Source: Pedobacter riviphilus (GTDB lineage Bacteria > Bacteroidota > Bacteroidia > Sphingobacteriales > Sphingobacteriaceae). Taken from it: a stretch of DNA of 64,000 bases. The stretch lies in the NCBI RefSeq assembly GCF_014692875.1, contig NZ_CP061171.1:4216001-4280000 (forward strand). The letters run 5' to 3'. Under the pieces are notes generated by a model, which saw nothing but the letters and a program-made list of their open reading frames with translations, was not told the DNA's origin and did no database searches. This document shows, piece by piece, positions 25,018 to 32,185 of the stretch. The first letter of the stretch is position 1; the number at the start of each line of letters is the position of its first letter. The position numbers were made by a program, and so were the translations under genes.

Positions 25018-26151
25018 TTGATGAAAAAATACTGTCTAATTATTTTACTTGCGCTCATTTCAGGAAGTTCATTCGCACAGATGAAACTGATCAGGAAAAT
25101 GCTCTCAAACGAAAAAGATACTACACGTAAAGCGAGCTTTTTACCGTTACCGGCCTTTGGTTATAGTCAGGAAACAGGATTTGAATTTGGTGTCGGGGCC
25201 ATTTATTCATTCTATATAGACCGGAAAGATACATTGAACCGCAGTTCCAATTTCGCTTTAAACACAACTTATTCTACTAAAAAGACGGCTAATTTTATGC
25301 TTAAGGGCGATATGTGGACAAAAGGGAACAAATACCACTTTATCGGTGATATCCGCTTTAAAAACCAGCCCTTTAATTTTTATGGTATTGGCAACAGCGC
25401 TACAAAGTCTGATGAAAACAAATTAGATCAAAGGGTTTTTAAAACACTTTTCGATGCCGAAATGAATACTTTGCCCAAAGCTTATACGGGTATTTCATTA
25501 GGTTTTGAGAATTATCATTTTATAGACAGACAGCCTGGAGGTATTTATTCCACTAGCCCACAAATTTTAGATAAAGACGGTGGCTCGGTAGCATGGATCG
25601 GCGCATCTCAAAGTTACGATACCCGTAACAGCAATAACTATCCAACCAAAGGTTTTTTCGGTAGGGCAACCTATCAATATGCACCAGATTTTTTTGGCGG
25701 GGAAAATTTCAATGGCTCACAGATTAAGCTCGACCTTCGTGGTTTCTTTAGTTTAGCCCCGAAAGTGGTTTTGGGTATACAGGGAATTTATTATACCATA
25801 CAGAGCAAAAGCACACCATTTTATTTATTGCAGCAATTAGGGAACGACCAAATGATGCGTGGTTATTACAGTGGTCGCTACCGCGATGAAAACTTAATGG
25901 CTGCGCAGGCCGAAATCCGTTACCGTTTTATGAACCGCTTTGGCATTGTAGCTTTTGCGGGTACCGGCAAAGTATTTGCAAACAGCCAGTTTAATGGCGA
26001 TGGATTAAAACCAAATTTTGGGCTTGGCGGTCGCTACTTTTTCGATCCGGCAAAAGGTTTGAGCGTTCGATTAGATTATGGTATAGGAGAAAAATTGCCA
26101 AATGAAAAACGCCAGGCAGGATTTTACATTAGCTTGGCTGAAGCGTTTTAG
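25018..26151 (+). CDS. BamA/TamA-family (Omp85) outer-membrane barrel without POTRA domains
   Basis: A 377-residue protein with a signal peptide (MMKKYCLIILLALISGSSFAQ) followed almost at once by barrel strands (LPAFGYSQETGFEFGVGAIYSFY...). The segment MMRGYYSGRYRDENLMAAQAEIRYRF (about 281-306) is the RG(F/Y) loop and strand of the Omp85 family, and the protein ends in Phe. At this length there is no room for POTRA domains, so it resembles the stand-alone surface-antigen barrels rather than BamA itself. Cargo or function is unknown. It is a single-gene unit. Confidence 0.85.
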   Translation: MMKKYCLIILLALISGSSFAQMKLIRKMLSNEKDTTRKASFLPLPAFGYSQETGFEFGVGAIYSFYIDRKDTLNRSSNFALNTTYSTKKTANFMLKGDMWTKGNKYHFIGDIRFKNQPFNFYGIGNSATKSDENKLDQRVFKTLFDAEMNTLPKAYTGISLGFENYHFIDRQPGGIYSTSPQILDKDGGSVAWIGASQSYDTRNSNNYPTKGFFGRATYQYAPDFFGGENFNGSQIKLDLRGFFSLAPKVVLGIQGIYYTIQSKSTPFYLLQQLGNDQMMRGYYSGRYRDENLMAAQAEIRYRFMNRFGIVAFAGTGKVFANSQFNGDGLKPNFGLGGRYFFDPAKGLSVRLDYGIGEKLPNEKRQAGFYISLAEAF

Positions 26152-26183
26152 GAGATGGGTGATTGAACATTCGCCCAGGCTTA

Positions 26184-26246
26184 TCATTCTGAACGCAGTG
26201 AAAAATCTTTATAATAAGATAGGTGCTGAAACAAGTTACCAATGAC
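26184..26246. repeat. REP-like palindromic repeat, diverged copy
   Basis: TCATTCTGAACGCAGTGAA at the left and GTGCTGAAACAAGTTACC...ATGAC at the right give the same plan as the copy at 54940-55003: outer TCA...TGA ends and inner CTGAA...TTCAG type arms. It lies in the gap between two convergent genes. Confidence 0.5.
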
Positions 26247-26264
26247 AGAGTACAAGGAATGGCC

Positions 26265-26347
26265 GTCTTTCCCGCGCAGGTGGGAATCTTAATGCAAGCT
26301 ACAAACCCTACTAAGGCATTACGATTCCCAATCAAGTTGGGAATGAC
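26265..26347. repeat. MITE-like repeat with GTCATTCCC/GGGAATGAC ends, copy 1
   Basis: An 83-base element with inverted ends GTCTTTCCC and GGGAATGAC. Inside are two small palindromes, TCCCGC...GTGGGA and TCCCAATCAAGTTGGGA. A second copy in the opposite orientation is at 55151-55218. It lies between the stops of two convergent genes. Confidence 0.7.
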
Positions 26348-26433
26348 GATTCATCAGCACCTTTTCTCCTAAAAATCATCTGGTGTATTAACAGATTGCC
26401 CCTATTCCATCATACATTTCACATCTTCCATCC

Positions 26434-28812
26434 CTAATTACTCCTCTTCCGCTCCTCTTCATTCCCAGGTTTCCTATCCTGCTGTTTAATTTTTTCATTT
26501 CCGAAATTATAACGGAAAGTAATCCGCAGCTGCCGACTATCGTAATAATTATTATACTCCTGCCTGATGTTATTAACCAAACTGCTAGAACGGTATCGGT
26601 TTGTTTTTAAAATATCGCTGGCAGTAATGGCCAATTGTATTTTTTTATGGAGGAACAAAGTTTTAATGCCCAAATCGAGATTATACTGTTTTTTATTTTT
26701 ATTCAACCCATCAACTGTTGGAAATTGGTACCAGAAACTTACTTCACCCAAAATAGTTTTCGACGGGTTAAAAACGAATTGGTTAAGCGTAGAAAAATAA
26801 GCGCCAAATCCATTTAAACTGCCCAGGGTTTGGGCGATACTGGAATTGGATGCATTGTAAAAAACATCAAACTGGTTAATCGTTTCCCACCCCTTCGCGA
26901 TGTTAAAATTAATGACATTACTTAACTGATAATGATAGCCTGTTATAAAATTAACCGGTTGAGCAGCCTGGGTATTCGTAGCCGCATCAATAAAATTCAC
27001 ATCATTAAATCCATTTGTGGTTTTGCTGAAAGATAGCGATGTAGTATATATATTATAGGTGTACGAGAGTTCGATGTTATCGTTATAGGATGGCTGCAAA
27101 AATGGATTACCCTCGGCATAAGCATATTGGTTGCTGTACCAACGGAAAGGATTTAATTTACGGTAGGCAGGACGGTTGATCCGGCGTCCATAATTAACCG
27201 AAAAAGTGCTTTTATCATTTGCACGATAAATAATGAAAAGTGTAGGGAAAAGACGAAAATACTCATTCCGATTTTGTTCATTAACCGATAATCCATCAAT
27301 CTGTGTATACTCTCCCCTCAGTCCTACCTGAAAATCCCACTGTTTTATTGTCTTGCTGAAATTAACATATAAAGCCTGGGTATTTTCCTGATAGTTGAAA
27401 AGGTTGGTTTGGCCAGGATCTAATTCGTAAACCGCATTACGGGCTTTGTAAAAAGCAAGATCGCTTTGGTTGTTGATAAAGCTCAGTTTTGTACCGAAGG
27501 ATAGTTTAAAGGTTTTATAGGGCAAGTCTACATCAGTCTTTAAGGTAAAAAAATCTATATTTTGTTTGCTGGTTGATAGGTATTCGGCAAAGGAGTGCGG
27601 AATAATCTCTCCATTTTGAAAATAGCTCGTATTGTTAAAAAATCTATTTTTATCATCACTATATTTAAACCAATCGCCATTAATGGTCAGTTGTTTCCCT
27701 GTAGAATCTAAGGTCTGTTTTAAATAAACATTGGCTGAATGATAATGAGACATGATTTTGGCATTGGCATCAGAATTCAATATCGAGTCTAAACCATTGG
27801 TTGGGTTATAAACTGTGGTTTTAATATTTTCTTCAGAATGGAAGCTGGTTACGCCACCATTGTACGATAAACCCAATACTGTTTTTTTGGTGGCCTGATA
27901 ATCAATTCCGATCTGCCCACTGGGCACCGTTCTAAAATTCCGGTCCTTATTTACAATATTCCAGGTTTGTGCGGGATAAAAAACATCACTTTGTTCAAAC
28001 GGTACAAGAGATCCTTTTCTAATATTGAAATTAGAAGAAAGTGTGATCTTGTTCCTACGATAATTTAAGTTTCCACCTGCAGATGCGGTTATATAATTTG
28101 CCTGCGTTAAAGCCGTATTTACCGAACCTTTAAAACCTTCGGCAGTAGCTTTCTTCAATACAATATTAATCAAGCCATTATTTCCCTGGGCATCATATTT
28201 TGCCGGCGGATTGGTAATCACTTCAATCTTGGCAATGGTGCCTGATGGAATTGATTTTAAATAATTCGCCAGTTCATCTGCCGACAAAGGCACCAGTTTA
28301 TCGTTAATCATCACATTAACCTCACCTTTGCCCACCAGCGAAACCTTATCGTTCAAAACGCGTACACTAGGAACTTTTGAAAGCAGTTCCAAAGCATCTG
28401 TCCCGATTGCGGAAATACTATTTTCTACATTAAAAACAGTTCTGTCGATCTTTTTTTCGATCAATGCTTTTTTGGCATTAATCTGAATGTCGACAAGGGT
28501 ATTCGGGTTACGCATGAGTTGAACATTGATTATAGTATCTTTTATTAAGGTAAATAACTGATTAATGGCTTTAAAATTGAGCGCAGAGAAAACAACAGAA
28601 TGTTTTCCGGTTTGTAGATTTTTAAAAGTGTAAAAACCTAAACTATCTGTTTGGGTATAATTTACCCGGTTTTGAGGACCAGAAATTTTAACGGTAACAA
28701 ATGGTAAAGCTTTATACTCTTGATCGGCTACTCTACCAGATAAATTGATCTGAGCTTTTAAGGTTAGCGAAATAAAAATTATAAATATTAAGGCTAAGAT
28801 TTTGTTTAACAT
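26434..28812 (-). CDS. TonB-dependent receptor-like outer-membrane barrel (outer membrane beta-barrel family)
   Basis: A 792-residue protein: signal peptide (about 1-20, ending LKAQ), a carboxypeptidase-regulatory-like domain (about 24-105, INLSGRVADQEYKALPFVTVKI...), a plug-like part (about 120-215, VPSVRVLNDKVSLVGKGEVNVMINDKLVPLS and KIEVITNPPAKYDAQGNNGLINIVLKK) and a barrel of the PF14905 type. This group usually lies next to BlaI/M56 or sensor genes in Bacteroidota; its ligand is unknown and it may be a structural or signalling barrel rather than a transporter. It follows the small M56 gene by 30 bases and is the last gene of the BlaI operon. Confidence 0.9.
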   Translation of the reverse strand: MLNKILALIFIIFISLTLKAQINLSGRVADQEYKALPFVTVKISGPQNRVNYTQTDSLGFYTFKNLQTGKHSVVFSALNFKAINQLFTLIKDTIINVQLMRNPNTLVDIQINAKKALIEKKIDRTVFNVENSISAIGTDALELLSKVPSVRVLNDKVSLVGKGEVNVMINDKLVPLSADELANYLKSIPSGTIAKIEVITNPPAKYDAQGNNGLINIVLKKATAEGFKGSVNTALTQANYITASAGGNLNYRRNKITLSSNFNIRKGSLVPFEQSDVFYPAQTWNIVNKDRNFRTVPSGQIGIDYQATKKTVLGLSYNGGVTSFHSEENIKTTVYNPTNGLDSILNSDANAKIMSHYHSANVYLKQTLDSTGKQLTINGDWFKYSDDKNRFFNNTSYFQNGEIIPHSFAEYLSTSKQNIDFFTLKTDVDLPYKTFKLSFGTKLSFINNQSDLAFYKARNAVYELDPGQTNLFNYQENTQALYVNFSKTIKQWDFQVGLRGEYTQIDGLSVNEQNRNEYFRLFPTLFIIYRANDKSTFSVNYGRRINRPAYRKLNPFRWYSNQYAYAEGNPFLQPSYNDNIELSYTYNIYTTSLSFSKTTNGFNDVNFIDAATNTQAAQPVNFITGYHYQLSNVINFNIAKGWETINQFDVFYNASNSSIAQTLGSLNGFGAYFSTLNQFVFNPSKTILGEVSFWYQFPTVDGLNKNKKQYNLDLGIKTLFLHKKIQLAITASDILKTNRYRSSSLVNNIRQEYNNYYDSRQLRITFRYNFGNEKIKQQDRKPGNEEERKRSN

Positions 28813-28842: not shown

Positions 28843-29646
28843 TTAATCTTTTCTTCCAAAAACTTTAGCTTTTGAAGTCTCAATATTTAAATGAATAGAA
28901 TCGGCTACAATTATACTTTGTTGATCCTTGGTTAATAGTTTTACTTTATTTGCATTAATCGTGTTAAGGTTTTTCGAGTATGTGGCACTAGAAGCTAAAA
29001 TAGTTAATCCATCATTTATTATTTTAACAACTATGGGGCTAAACCATAAAACGGCTTTAAAAGCCATTAAAATAATTTTATCTATCGAATGGTATTGCTT
29101 AACGTGTACCTGCTCATGTTTAAGCAAAACGGATAAATCCGCCGTGCTTAAATCGTTGTGATTTATAAAAACATAGTTAAAAAAGGAACAATTGGTAAAG
29201 CCTTCGGTTTTGCTGATCAGCTTTAGGCCATCGCCATTTTTGGTGTAGCTACCGGTATACTTAAGCAAACCCAACAGTTGCCATAGGCAGGCCAACAATA
29301 AAAGTGAAGCAGTACCACCATAAATGAAATACATCACCACCATCCAATCGATTTTAGACTCTACTTCTGGCTGGTACTCCAACATCATGGGCCGAATAAG
29401 TTGAACAGGTTCTTGAGCAGCGGGTTTTATTTCAGGTATTCTAACCGGAGCCTCAGTTTCCACTACTGTTATTTCGCGCTTAATTTCAAGCTGCAAAGCC
29501 GGAATAATAAAACTCAACAATAACGTAACCAGCAAATAAAAACGGTTGATTTTAAAAAAAGTGAGCTTCCTTAAAACCACCACATAAAATCCAAAGAACA
29601 ACACCGTACAGGCGGTAACTTTAAGCAGGTAGGTTAACCATTCCAT
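28843..29646 (-). CDS. BlaR1-like M56 membrane peptidase, C-terminally shortened
   Basis: A 267-residue protein with BlaR1-type membrane segments (about 5-25, 36-52, 101-128) and the zinc motif HEQVH (177-181, LLKHEQVHVKQYHSIDK). In its neighbour the motif is followed by HNHEFLADRE, which provides the third zinc ligand; here the matching place reads IINDGLTILASSATYSKN and has no Glu. The protein ends soon after with NKVKLLTKDQQ...ADSIHLNIETSKAKVFGRKD, which looks like the tail of longer M56 proteins, so an internal part seems lost. It may be inactive. It follows the M56-amidase gene by 11 bases. Confidence 0.85.
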   Translation of the reverse strand: MEWLTYLLKVTACTVLFFGFYVVVLRKLTFFKINRFYLLVTLLLSFIIPALQLEIKREITVVETEAPVRIPEIKPAAQEPVQLIRPMMLEYQPEVESKIDWMVVMYFIYGGTASLLLLACLWQLLGLLKYTGSYTKNGDGLKLISKTEGFTNCSFFNYVFINHNDLSTADLSVLLKHEQVHVKQYHSIDKIILMAFKAVLWFSPIVVKIINDGLTILASSATYSKNLNTINANKVKLLTKDQQSIIVADSIHLNIETSKAKVFGRKD

Positions 29647-29657
29647 AACTATAATTA

Positions 29658-31217
29658 TTAACAGCCCCGTTTCGAAAAAGCTACAAATCCATCTAAAATC
29701 AGGTTGCTGATCCTTCGGATATTTTTTTCCTGATTGATATATTCCAGTGTTTTACCATTCGAAATATTTCCAAGTTCGATTAAAACAGCAGGCACTTTAG
29801 ATTCGCGGAGCAATAACAGGTTTGCGTTTTTTAACGAATCTCTTACTTCAAGCCCATTTAGCTGTTTCAGCTTGCTTAAAATACCAGCACCCAGATCTTC
29901 CGCTGTTTTAATATTACTGTTCTGTTTCGAAACATAAATTTCAATTCCGCCGAAAGGCACAGCTGCATTTGCAAGTGTTGCATTATGGTGGATGGAAATA
30001 AATGCCATGGCTTCTTGTTTAGGCAAGCGATCTCTAAGTGAAATGAACTGGTCAGCATTTCTTGTTAATATTACTTTAATCCCTCTTTTTGCGGCCTCTT
30101 CTTTCAGTATTTTCACCGCTCTTAAGTTCAGGTCTTTTTCTTTTTGTCCATCAAGTGCCGCAACCGATCCATCTTTTCCTCCATGACCGGCATCAACAAC
30201 CAATACAGGTTCTATTTCTCTAAATGCAGGCTTTGCATTTGGATTAACCTTAATATTGCTGTTTAAGTAGTTCATAGTATAAACATTTGGTCTTGTCGAC
30301 GCATCTGCAGAAGCCTGGTTTCCAGCTAATGTTTTCTCAACAATAATTTCTTTGCGGTTTATAAATGCCATACAGCAAACCATTAACACCGGAATAATAG
30401 CTAAATAAGCAAGCTTTTGCAGCTTTGTATTGGGTTCTTTGTACAACATCATGATTCTATTTTTTAGTGGAAGTTTACTAAAACTATTAATGGCTAAATT
30501 TTGGAATGGCATAGCCAGATCTAAAAGTAAAAAAGCATAAATCTTCTTATCTACAACTTTTGAAGTCTCGCGATCGGCCAGAAATTCATGATTATGATCA
30601 ATGGCATTCCGCCAGAAATAAATAATGGGGTTAAACCAAAGGACGGCGGTAACGAAATTGACTAAAAGTTTGTCGACAGCATGCAGCTGCTCAACGTGAA
30701 CCGATTCATGTTTTATAACCAGATTCTTTTCTTCATACTGCAAAGTGGAGTCGACAATAATCTGGTTAAAAAAAGAGCAGTTTTTTATGCTTGATTTCGC
30801 ATCCACCAAGATAATGGCACCACATCTATCAATAGCATACTTACGCAATTGCATCTGAATGCGCGCCATCATAAAAAGCATTCTAAAAATAAGGGCCGCT
30901 AAAATGGCACAATAACTGTATATGAGCAATTCATCCAAGTTTAGGTTATGGTTAGCAGAGCTGCCTTTGTCTACAAAATCCTGCTCAACAAAACCATCAT
31001 TGCTATATGCTATTTTTGAGGGAATCTCTTTGGTGGCTACCGTTACTTCGTGACGGTTTTCGATGGTAACCGCCGGGATACCAAAACTCAGCACCAGCAT
31101 CATTAATAAATAAGCACGGTTCAGGTTAAAAAATGTGAGCTTAGCCAACAATAACTGATAAGCAGCAAAAAATATCAGCGTACAGGCAGAAACCTTTAAC
31201 AAATAGATTAAAATCAT
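29658..31217 (-). CDS. fusion of BlaR1-like M56 peptidase with N-acetylmuramoyl-L-alanine amidase (Amidase_3)
   Basis: A 519-residue two-part protein. Residues 1-290 are a BlaR1-type M56 peptidase: membrane segments about 3-24, 34-52, 98-118, 184-202 and 268-286, zinc site HESVH (170-174) with third ligand Glu 211 (HEFLADRE). Residues about 335-517 are an Amidase_3 domain with all expected residues: His 345 (VDAGHGG), Glu 360 (EKDLNLRA), His 410 (SIHHNA) and Glu 481 (LIELGNIS). In BlaR1 this outer part is a penicillin-binding sensor; here it is a peptidoglycan amidase fold in the periplasm. The start overlaps the BlaI stop by four bases. Role proposed: sensing or trimming cell wall and cleaving the BlaI repressor. 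Confidence 0.92.
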   Translation of the reverse strand: MILIYLLKVSACTLIFFAAYQLLLAKLTFFNLNRAYLLMMLVLSFGIPAVTIENRHEVTVATKEIPSKIAYSNDGFVEQDFVDKGSSANHNLNLDELLIYSYCAILAALIFRMLFMMARIQMQLRKYAIDRCGAIILVDAKSSIKNCSFFNQIIVDSTLQYEEKNLVIKHESVHVEQLHAVDKLLVNFVTAVLWFNPIIYFWRNAIDHNHEFLADRETSKVVDKKIYAFLLLDLAMPFQNLAINSFSKLPLKNRIMMLYKEPNTKLQKLAYLAIIPVLMVCCMAFINRKEIIVEKTLAGNQASADASTRPNVYTMNYLNSNIKVNPNAKPAFREIEPVLVVDAGHGGKDGSVAALDGQKEKDLNLRAVKILKEEAAKRGIKVILTRNADQFISLRDRLPKQEAMAFISIHHNATLANAAVPFGGIEIYVSKQNSNIKTAEDLGAGILSKLKQLNGLEVRDSLKNANLLLLRESKVPAVLIELGNISNGKTLEYINQEKNIRRISNLILDGFVAFSKRGC

Positions 31218-31582
31218 GGCTTCGAATCTTGATTAATGATTTTCTTAATTTCTTCGATATCCTTTTCACTCAACTTTTCTTCTTTTACCATAAAGGATAA
31301 AAGACTGCTTGGAGAGTTATCAAAATAACCTGAGAACAATTTGGAGAAAGTGGTTTTGGCATATTCATCTTTGCTAATGGCCGGAAAGTACTCGTATGTT
31401 TTTCCATAAGCCTTGTACTTAACATAACCTTTCTTTTCTAAAAGCCTAACGATTGATGAAATGGTGTTATAGGGCGGTTTAGGCTCCTCTTCCAGTTCAT
31501 CAATAATATCTTTCACAAATGCTTTTTGCAGTTTCCATAAAATCTGCATAATGCGTTCTTCTGCTTTAGTTAATTCTTCCAT
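31214..31582 (-). CDS. BlaI/MecI/CopY-family transcriptional repressor
   Basis: A 122-residue winged-helix repressor from the ATG at 31582 (MEELTKAEERIMQILWKLQKAFVKDIIDELEEEPKPPYNTISSIVRLLEKKGYV), the family's N-terminal DNA-binding domain; an upstream TTG at 31588 would add two residues. The C-terminal part (SKLFSGYFDNSPSSLLSFMVKEEKLSEKDIEEI) is the dimerisation arm where BlaI proteins are cut by BlaR1-type peptidases. It is the first gene of the operon and should control its own promoter. Confidence 0.95.
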   Translation of the reverse strand: MEELTKAEERIMQILWKLQKAFVKDIIDELEEEPKPPYNTISSIVRLLEKKGYVKYKAYGKTYEYFPAISKDEYAKTTFSKLFSGYFDNSPSSLLSFMVKEEKLSEKDIEEIKKIINQDSKP

Positions 31583-31585
31583 ACT

Positions 31586-31645
31586 CAAATCTATAACTTA
31601 CTTTTCAGTTTTACAACTAAAAAACAAGTTATATTACTGAAAAAT
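31586..31645 (-). promoter_or_regulatory. BlaI operon promoter with overlapping inverted-repeat operator
   Basis: On the minus strand TAGATTTG (31593-31586) matches the -7 box exactly and TTG (31616-31614) lies 20 bases upstream. An imperfect dyad centred at 31622.5 covers the -33 side: outer arms ACTTTTCAGT (31600-31609) and ACTGAAAAAT (31636-31645) match in nine of ten places, inner arms ACAACT (31613-31618) and AGTTAT (31627-31632) in five of six. The start codon is only four bases from the -7 box, so the transcript would be nearly leaderless. Confidence 0.5.
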
Positions 31646-31724
31646 CAGTTTAAAAATATAATATCCTGATTATAAGATAAATATATTTAGCTAAAATAAA
31701 AAAACAGTATTGCTTGTAATTGAG

Positions 31725-32185
31725 ATCCTGTCATACGCTTTACTTCGTTACACTTTGTGCCTGCTGCTGTCAGATTTATGAGGAAAGGCCCTGCGCCTGA
31801 CATGGAGCCAGAAGCATTTAACCTTTGTTACTAAACCCGATCGAAGTGGTTCCGGTTCTTCACCGGAAGTAACGAAGAGCGGGACGGAAGCCCGCCAAAA
31901 GTAACGAACTGTTCATTTTCTAATTCTTAAAAACATTAACCTTTTTTTGAAAACGAACGGCTTGTGGTGCTTGGCCATTGTAGCCCCGCCATCCGCTTTA
32001 CTCCGTTGCACTCCGTGTTCGCTGCTGTCAGGTTTATAACCGAAGGGCCTGCTCCCGGCATGTAGCCAAAGGCGCTTATCCACTGTAACTAAACCCGATC
32101 GGAGCGAGATGCAACCGATTTTTCATCGGGTGCAGAAGCGGGAGCGGGACTGAAGCCTGCCAAAAGAAATGGAACGCTCATTTTC
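31725..32185 (+). repeat. two tandem diverged units of the long intergenic repeat
   Basis: The 688-base gap 31589-32276 holds no credible gene beyond the operator. Two units of about 258 bases follow each other: CATACGCTTTAC at 31732 and CATCCGCTTTAC at 31990, each followed by a Cys-Thr rich stretch, TGTCAG(A/G)TTTA, then CCCGATCG and a hairpin (CCGGTTCTTCACCGG near 31852; CCGATTTTTCATCGG near 32119) and AGCGGGA(C/G). The same core in reverse orientation is at 56484-56537 and 56757-56810. Confidence 0.65.

Follow-up and report, generated by a model that had tools for sequence, protein, structure and literature searches.

The best-studied receptor that acts by cutting a repressor is BlaR1, which together with its repressor BlaI senses penicillin in Gram-positive bacteria; a membrane protease of the BlaR type switches on penicillin resistance in Staphylococcus. 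Here we analyse an operon of related design in Pedobacter riviphilus (Bacteroidota, Sphingobacteriaceae), located in a 64,000-nucleotide stretch of its genome (contig NZ_CP061171.1, positions 4,216,001 to 4,280,000; hereafter the window, in whose coordinates all positions are given). A gene for a BlaI/MecI-family repressor is followed there by a gene in which an M56 peptidase is fused to an Amidase_3 domain; amidases of this family cut MurNAc-L-Ala bonds, at the base of the peptidoglycan stem peptide. Our preferred reading, to which we assign a probability of roughly one half, is that the fusion combines a BlaR-like receptor-protease with a functional amidase outside the membrane, the amidase acting both as the detector and as the main regulated output.

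According to PMC9834060, the C-terminal domain of BlaR1 outside the membrane is the sensor, and the outer loop EL1 (residues 56-96) is modelled in the sensor active site until the drug displaces it. The same paper places the self-cleavage of BlaR1 at Ser283-Phe284 and the cleavage of BlaI, which BlaR1 carries out directly and with no other components, at Asn101-Phe102. It also describes the Phe at P1' as near-invariant in BlaI, and the loss of the BlaR1 sensor domain to signal peptidase at Gly331. PMC3305447 reports that the dipeptide gamma-D-Glu-mDAP (mDAP, meso-diaminopimelic acid) binds BlaI/MecI and destabilises the repressor-DNA complex.

The fusion gene (29658-31217; it and the other operon genes, the boxes and the promoter all lie on the minus strand, a point absent from the first-pass annotation discussed below) encodes 519 residues matching the Pfam families Peptidase_M56 (PF05569; 4.6e-13, 49.4 bits against a cut-off of 31) and Amidase_3 (PF01520; 3.5e-34, 118.8 bits against a cut-off of 27). 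Its membrane and protease half (residues 1-286; 30360-31217) comprises the transmembrane (TM) helices TM1 (2-24), TM2 (30-49) and TM3 (94-127), a cytosolic gluzincin domain and TM4 (265-285). Both gluzincin motifs are present, HExxH as HESVH at residues 170-174 (30696-30710) and ExxxD at residues 211-215, with Glu211 and Asp215. The Amidase_3 domain (residues 338-516; 29670-30206) carries His345, Glu360, His410 and Glu481, which we take to be the zinc ligands and the catalytic Glu. A first-pass annotation of this DNA had described an M56 protease and a complete Amidase_3 domain in one protein, and all the residues that it named were correct.

An AlphaFold2 (AF2) model of the fusion (predicted local distance difference test score, pLDDT, 79.8; predicted template modelling score, pTM, 0.51) presents an amidase fold in the C-terminal half and a topology like that of BlaR1, with four TM helices, the protease inside and the C-terminal domain outside. 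The amidase domain is thus predicted to lie outside the membrane, and the cytoplasm-facing arrangement that the first-pass annotation had singled out as fatal to its proposal does not appear in the model. The outer loop EL1 (residues 51-93, 43 residues; 30939-31067) takes the position of the BlaR1 loop that plugs its sensor and is of similar size. It is mostly of low confidence in the AF2 model, and Tyr71, Glu78 and Asp80 within it are conserved (majority fraction of at least 0.8 over 68 rows). The linker between the two halves (about residues 294-333) combines low model confidence with poor conservation. The fusion returned no transpeptidase-type (penicillin-binding) match in Pfam at an E-value of 0.1, and scored 13.3 bits with the NCBIfam blaR1 model against a cut-off of 400.

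Two protein searches identified at least 192 clusters containing both domains. The first detected both Pfam domains in 118 of the best 120 of 1033 matches, including a protein from Pedobacter sp. SG908 that is 96% identical to the fusion, and the second, started from a distant locus (L055), in 74 of the best 120 of 291. These clusters rule out an assembly join, which the first-pass annotation had raised in case the fusion should be absent from other genomes. Among the matches listed, named owners were nearly all Pedobacter, Mucilaginibacter and kin, together with Pelobium, Sphingobacteriaceae/Sphingobacteriales and one Flavobacterium sp. (P0012); the listed clusters showed the architectures M56-Amidase, M56-Amidase-LptA (P0176 and P0178, by source names) and M56-Amidase-TonB_C (P0216, P0227 and P0232). 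Genome scans yielded full-length matches in 10 of 151 family genomes, including 7 of 20 of the genus, and in at least 3 of 394 phylum genomes, all three in the window's genus, with up to three candidates scored per genome in the phylum scan. The phylum count is a lower bound because of the candidate limit and because other architectures, such as that of L055, escape the full-length measure; L053 and L055 (G115 and G121) are further amidase-bearing M56 proteins that the full-length measure missed in the family scan. A fusion common across the Bacteroidota is not borne out by these counts.

A scan of the genome collection provided 34 loci, 32 of which are fusion loci (L008-L039), while L040 matches the second M56 gene of the operon and L041 encodes an M56 protein in which TonB_C matched weakly. 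In all 32 fetched fusion loci the gene immediately upstream of the fusion is BlaI, and in 29 the two overlap by 4 bp (open reading frames matched by blastp). The 4-bp overlap reported earlier for the window (31214-31582 against 29658-31217) is confirmed. The M56-Amidase_3 domain pair is already visible in public annotation, and most named public records among the matches listed label the fusion only as an amidase. Three records (P0046, P0168 and P0181) are labelled 'M56/M15 family metallopeptidase', and their second domain is Amidase_3 by Pfam. No description of an M56-amidase fusion was found in the titles and abstracts of the literature searched, where most subscription journals were not covered.

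Both active sites are conserved across this set. We compared 31 complete fusion genes, those of the window and of 30 of the 32 fetched fusion loci, leaving out L031, which is cut by a contig end, and L039, which is interrupted. In the latter (L039:8001-9559, Pedobacter mendelii) the fusion frame is broken between residues 348 and 371, unless this reflects an assembly error. Positions 170, 171, 174, 215, 246, 345, 360, 410 and 481 are invariant in all 31 genes; the sole deviation at position 211 is Asp in L038, the other 30 genes having Glu. In 121 aligned protein rows the protease residues His170, His174 and Glu211 are kept in 120, 119 and 119, and the amidase residues His345, Glu360, His410 and Glu481 in 121, 120, 121 and 120. 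The exceptions include Asp for His174 in P0103, Asp for Glu211 in P0115, and P0120, which is without the M56 half; P0111 ends just past His345, and its His at position 410 is an alignment artefact. Among 74 further fusions, HExxH and [E/D]xxxD occur in all 74; 71 could be assessed for the amidase residues, three not being placed by the motif search, and these keep His345 and Glu360 in 71 of 71 and His410 and Glu481 in 70 of 71 (P0144 deviates). The median dN/dS over 55 pairs from 11 close genes was 0.069 for the amidase, 0.112 for M56 and 0.214 for the linker. By this sequence measure no part of the fusion is under stronger constraint than the amidase half, which, with its catalytic residues kept, is not decaying.

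The repressor gene (31214-31582; ATG at 31582, 122 residues) matched Penicillinase_R over its full length (positions 1-115 of 115; 1.6e-32, 112.7 bits) and MecI (1sd6) by phmmer (1.3e-11). Upstream of its ATG, at -67, -47 and -27, lie three palindromic ACT-N8-AGT boxes with a spacing of exactly 20 bp: box 1, ACTGATTTTTCAGT (31636-31649), box 2, ACTTGTTTTTTAGT (31616-31629), and box 3, ACTGAAAAGTAAGT (31596-31609). Allowing a 1-nt shift, these boxes are found in 25, 32 and 33, respectively, of 33 loci (the window and the 32 fusion loci). A sequence of the form TTG-N20-TAGATTTG (31586-31616), which we take to be the Bacteroidota promoter form, ends 3 nt before the BlaI ATG and overlaps box 3, which falls between its -33 and -7 elements; the pattern TTG-N18-22-TAnnTTTG recurs in 32 of the 33 loci. 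Compared without gaps in 10-nt blocks, the upstream regions show an identity with the window of 0.76-0.92 between -70 and -1, of 0.63 in block -80 and of 0.27-0.52 between -130 and -81.

When the window's 130 nt were shuffled 20000 times with dinucleotides preserved, no shuffle contained as many as two boxes. Across the 5.8-Mb genome a search with the general paired pattern hit only this operon and a single paralogous BlaI-M56 operon, with 0 hits for the reversed control; the paired array in the fusion family's own letters, with up to two mismatches, hit this operon alone. This rarity suggests that the operon is probably self-repressed by BlaI at the predicted boxes. A regulon beyond the operon was sought as paired arrays, of which the general pattern returned none other than that paralogous operon; single boxes were not searched, as chance matches would swamp them. 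Of 18 further loci of the same locus type, one gave no BlaI start; the remaining 17 include two repeats of L037 and L038. At least one box was present in 17 of 17, two boxes at 20 bp in 14 and three in 4, with or without an amidase, which indicates that the array goes with BlaI and not with the amidase.

The anatomy of the cleavage sites is also conserved. Ser245-Phe246 of the fusion (30480-30485) aligns with the autocleavage bond Ser283-Phe284 of BlaR1 (phmmer against 8exp), and Phe246 is invariant in 76 aligned sequences and in the 31 complete genes. In BlaI the predicted cleavage bond is Ser96-Phe97 (31292-31297), with its Phe in step with that of the M56 autocleavage loop. The M56 frame was located by motif in 100 of 117 loci plus the window stretch, giving 97 BlaI-M56 pairs at 90 different places; a further 28 M56 frames had no adjacent BlaI (25 second operon genes and 3 in cut stretches or fragments). 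Both partners carry the Phe in 82 pairs and neither does in 12, the remaining cases being BlaI only in 3 and M56 only in none (94 of 97 concordant). This anatomy fits a predicted cleavage of BlaI at Ser96-Phe97.

Two further genes follow the fusion, so that the order on the minus strand is BlaI, fusion, second M56 (28843-29646, 267 residues) and an outer-membrane barrel (26434-28812, 792 residues); the span 29658-31582 covers the first two. After the 4-bp BlaI/fusion overlap the genes are separated by gaps of 11 and 30 bp. Scans for sigma-70 promoters (18 against a mean of 19.9) and terminators (5 against a mean of 4.7) performed no better than on shuffled sequence, and a single transcript for the four genes is accordingly something that we infer from their spacing alone. 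None of the four operon proteins reached an NCBIfam cut-off.

The first-pass annotation had listed a second M56 gene and a TonB-type barrel. The former is present and keeps HEQVH, with a sub-threshold M56 match (2.0e-4, 21.1 bits against 31). As it reads, it is without ExxxD and TM4 and can be neither an active protease nor another working receptor of the window. Its residues 1-206 match residues 1-205 of the second M56 of L016 (67%) and its residues 207-267 match residues 693-753 of the same protein (75%). By this comparison it is a remnant formed by in-frame internal deletion, in which the 206 N-terminal residues of the receptor run directly into the final 61 of an LptA-like tail. The barrel matched OMP_b-brl_3 (2.4e-93), TonB_dep_Rec_b-barrel (2.1e-11) and CarboxypepD_reg (2.4e-10) in Pfam, which agrees with the proposed type, but no plug domain matched at an E-value of 0.1 and the gene is missing from 6 of 30 judgeable relatives.

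Setting aside L031 and L038, which end too early for judgement, a second M56 follows the fusion in 24 of 30 loci (L039 having a 165-residue piece), with a longer copy in 23, and the barrel is present in 24 (as two frames in L011). The second M56 and the barrel are thus frequent, not fixed, partners of the fusion. In relatives the second M56 comprises about 400-816 residues with M56 motifs, and in most its outside part consists of OB-like and long-strand domains resembling LptA/LptC/LptD. Pfam LptD_N was detected in 13 of 34 scanned proteins at an E-value of 0.01 (best 1.7e-5), and Foldseek returned LptD/LptA/LptC at 1e-7 to 1e-4 amid unrelated OB folds, one of which was its first row, with a query model of low confidence (pLDDT 65, pTM 0.26). 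The LptA-like and OB-like identity of this part is hence soft. BlaI-linked M56 proteins with such domains (L008:9568-11739 and other second M56 genes) hint at receptors that monitor lipopolysaccharide transport or the condition of the outer membrane. In two loci (L019:9573-12017 and L023:9579-12029) an amidase domain is also present on the second M56. Two of its catalytic residues are replaced (His by Gln, Glu by Val or Ile); the adjacent fusion keeps them all.

The genome of P. riviphilus encodes five further BlaI-M56 pairs (L001, L002, L003, L005 and L006) with other C-termini and outside parts; like the operator array, these pairs go beyond the first-pass annotation. Upstream palindromes differ among them, with ACTATAAAAATAGT three times in L005, TACGA-type boxes in L001 and L003 and a single box in L006; no such box was found upstream of L002. 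The differing letters in L001, L003 and L005 give the impression of pairs kept insulated from each other. At least four changes of the amidase label are required on a tree of 50 M56 domains, where the label falls into the main clade, L053, the second genes of L019 and L023, and L045/L055, which are joined long branches of unsure placement. The amidase tree (18 rows, rooted on two free amidases whose rows were cut short) has 4 of its 15 inner branches starred, and most are unresolved. M23 (LytM) domains also occur outside on M56 receptors (L046:1576-3786, P0204, P0214 and P0240, the named ones from Mucilaginibacter). The M23 match of L046 looks degenerate, seemingly without the catalytic histidines of what we take to be the M23 motif.

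Eight neighbouring genes were assigned by Pfam to deoxyhypusine synthase-like, Omp85-domain, DUF1345, methyltransferase, transglutaminase-like, GH18 and CAP-domain proteins, and to a weak GH16 match. No beta-lactamase or penicillin-binding protein (PBP) was found by Pfam among the four operon genes and these neighbours. Interspersed repeats lie on both sides of the operon, at 26150-26400 and 31715-31900, parts of which match 42 and 11 other places in the genome, respectively.

Such a device might operate as follows. At rest, BlaI dimers would occupy the three boxes, 20 bp apart, and keep the promoter of the operon shut. The state of the wall would alter what the amidase domain holds, be it substrate, product or partner. 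EL1 and TM3/TM4 would relay this change to the M56 site in the cytosol, and that site would cut BlaI, by prediction at Ser96-Phe97. Release of the operon would supply more amidase-receptor, plus the second M56 and barrel where present, and the result would be a self-adjusting wall-trimming device.

A more specific version of this scheme is tentative and, on balance, doubtful. By analogy with BlaR1, the acidic loop EL1 would compete with peptidoglycan for the amidase zinc site, and plentiful cleavable wall would displace it and free M56 to cut BlaI. The place and size of EL1 and its conserved Tyr71, Glu78 and Asp80 make a BlaR1-like plug possible. Because the only paired array in the family letters lies on the operon itself, the output would be the amidase itself, in a one-protein feedback device that gauges the supply of amidase substrate and sets the amidase dose. 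The Sphingobacteriaceae would then possess a toolkit of insulated receptors, each with its own operator letters, whose outside parts were borrowed from the construction of the envelope (Amidase_3, M23, LptA-like, TonB_C).

Several observations weigh against our preferred reading of the amidase as both detector and output. The position of the amidase relative to the membrane part is not fixed by the model (pTM 0.51), and the low-confidence, poorly conserved linker does not favour tight mechanical coupling. The degenerate amidases on the second M56 of L019 and L023 imply that catalysis is not required on every M56. Asn101-Phe102 of MecI aligns without gaps to Phe97-Met98 of BlaI, placing the Phe of the window one residue earlier, and absences of the Phe fall mostly within the L001/L002 receptor subtype; the co-variation follows subtypes and is support, not proof. 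The promoter pattern occurs in only 9 of the 17 loci of the wider set, 13 of 20 genus genomes are without the fusion by the full-length measure, and, as no other target with a paired array was found, what the system controls may be too limited to amount to a stress response.

The first-pass annotation had called the amidase a sensor domain, a wording that turns an inference into a description, since the amidase may equally be a regulated effector. It could be no more than the regulated product, tethered by M56 and with no sensing role of its own, while the protease responds to another signal, such as the state of the membrane or outer membrane, through its TM segments, EL1 or the second M56. 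We consider this explanation unlikely but worth weighing, as many relatives have at this locus BlaI and an M56 on which no amidase is recognised and whose outside domains are often OB-like and LptA-like. These loci share the type of operator array, so that regulation does not depend on an amidase; the low confidence of the linker points the same way. Against this, the domain at the same place in BlaR1 is the sensor (PMC9834060), and the recurrence of wall-related domains there (Amidase_3, M23) is better explained by sensing.

The gamma-D-Glu-mDAP precedent with BlaI/MecI (PMC3305447) raises the possibility that the signal is a fragment of the wall. The amidase would free stem peptides, a derived peptide would enter the cytosol and bind BlaI, and M56 would help to make or complete the signal, a course compatible with the cut that Amidase_3-family enzymes make. 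This appears quite improbable, given that BlaR1 cuts BlaI directly without other components (PMC9834060) and that the conserved Ser-Phe sites favour cleavage; moreover, Pfam detected no peptide importer or recycling domain among the operon's four genes and its eight scanned neighbours, to which this search was confined. That the amidase fold merely docks peptidoglycan, cutting being dispensable, is suggested by the degenerate amidases of L019 and L023 and the degenerate-looking M23 of L046. With the four catalytic positions kept in 31 of 31 complete genes, 120-121 of 121 rows and 70-71 of 71 further fusions, and the lowest dN/dS of the protein in the amidase, we hold it to be decidedly improbable. 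A chance fusion kept for co-expression, in which M56 has other substrates or serves to trim or release the amidase, and BlaI is a simple autorepressor, would accord with BlaI cleavage in this operon being a prediction and with the outer-domain release made possible by the loss of the BlaR1 sensor to signal peptidase (Gly331; PMC9834060), but is very improbable in view of BlaI adjoining the fusion in 32 of 32 loci, the presence of boxes ahead of BlaI throughout the locus type and the conserved BlaR1-type autocleavage Phe.

If the fusion is indeed a receptor whose amidase is both detector and output, the M56-BlaI core would be a general envelope-sensing chassis, and the operon a case of a peptidoglycan hydrolase controlling its own amount. 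It would also bear on a question of long standing, whether BlaI release is driven by fragments or the state of the wall and not by the drug alone. The exchange of a sensor for an enzyme and the self-limited operon would surprise specialists; the operator array, the aligned cleavage bonds with paired Phe and the amidase as the most constrained part are new here.

Compared with known Amidase_3 enzymes such as LytH (with ActH), CwlV and AmiA/B/C, the amidase of the window differs in being fused to a receptor-protease. Its His410 and Glu481 lie 71 residues apart; the corresponding distances in the genome's two free amidases are 138 and 113, so that the amidase of the window is without their insertions. 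With other Bacteroidota BlaI-M56 pairs, whose outside parts are TonB_C, LptA-like, OB-like or unnamed, it shares a BlaI gene directly upstream, the receptor core and upstream boxes; most of those pairs are without an amidase, and box letters vary among the paralogous pairs of this genome. Relative to BlaR1/MecR1, the outside domain is a zinc amidase instead of a class D beta-lactamase-like penicillin-binding domain, the operon is without a beta-lactamase or PBP gene and serves a Gram-negative envelope, and paired boxes in the family's letters occur only on its own operon. The earlier description of a relative of the BlaR system thus stands for protease, repressor and logic and falls for penicillin binding, the absence of which means that the fusion is not BlaR1 by membership. 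It shares with BlaR1/MecR1-BlaI/MecI an M56 gluzincin with HExxH and ExxxD, four TM helices, an EL1 of similar size, a C-terminal outside domain, an adjacent repressor, Ser-Phe at the autocleavage position and palindromic promoter boxes, and belongs to the BlaR/BlaI kind by its logic and its core.

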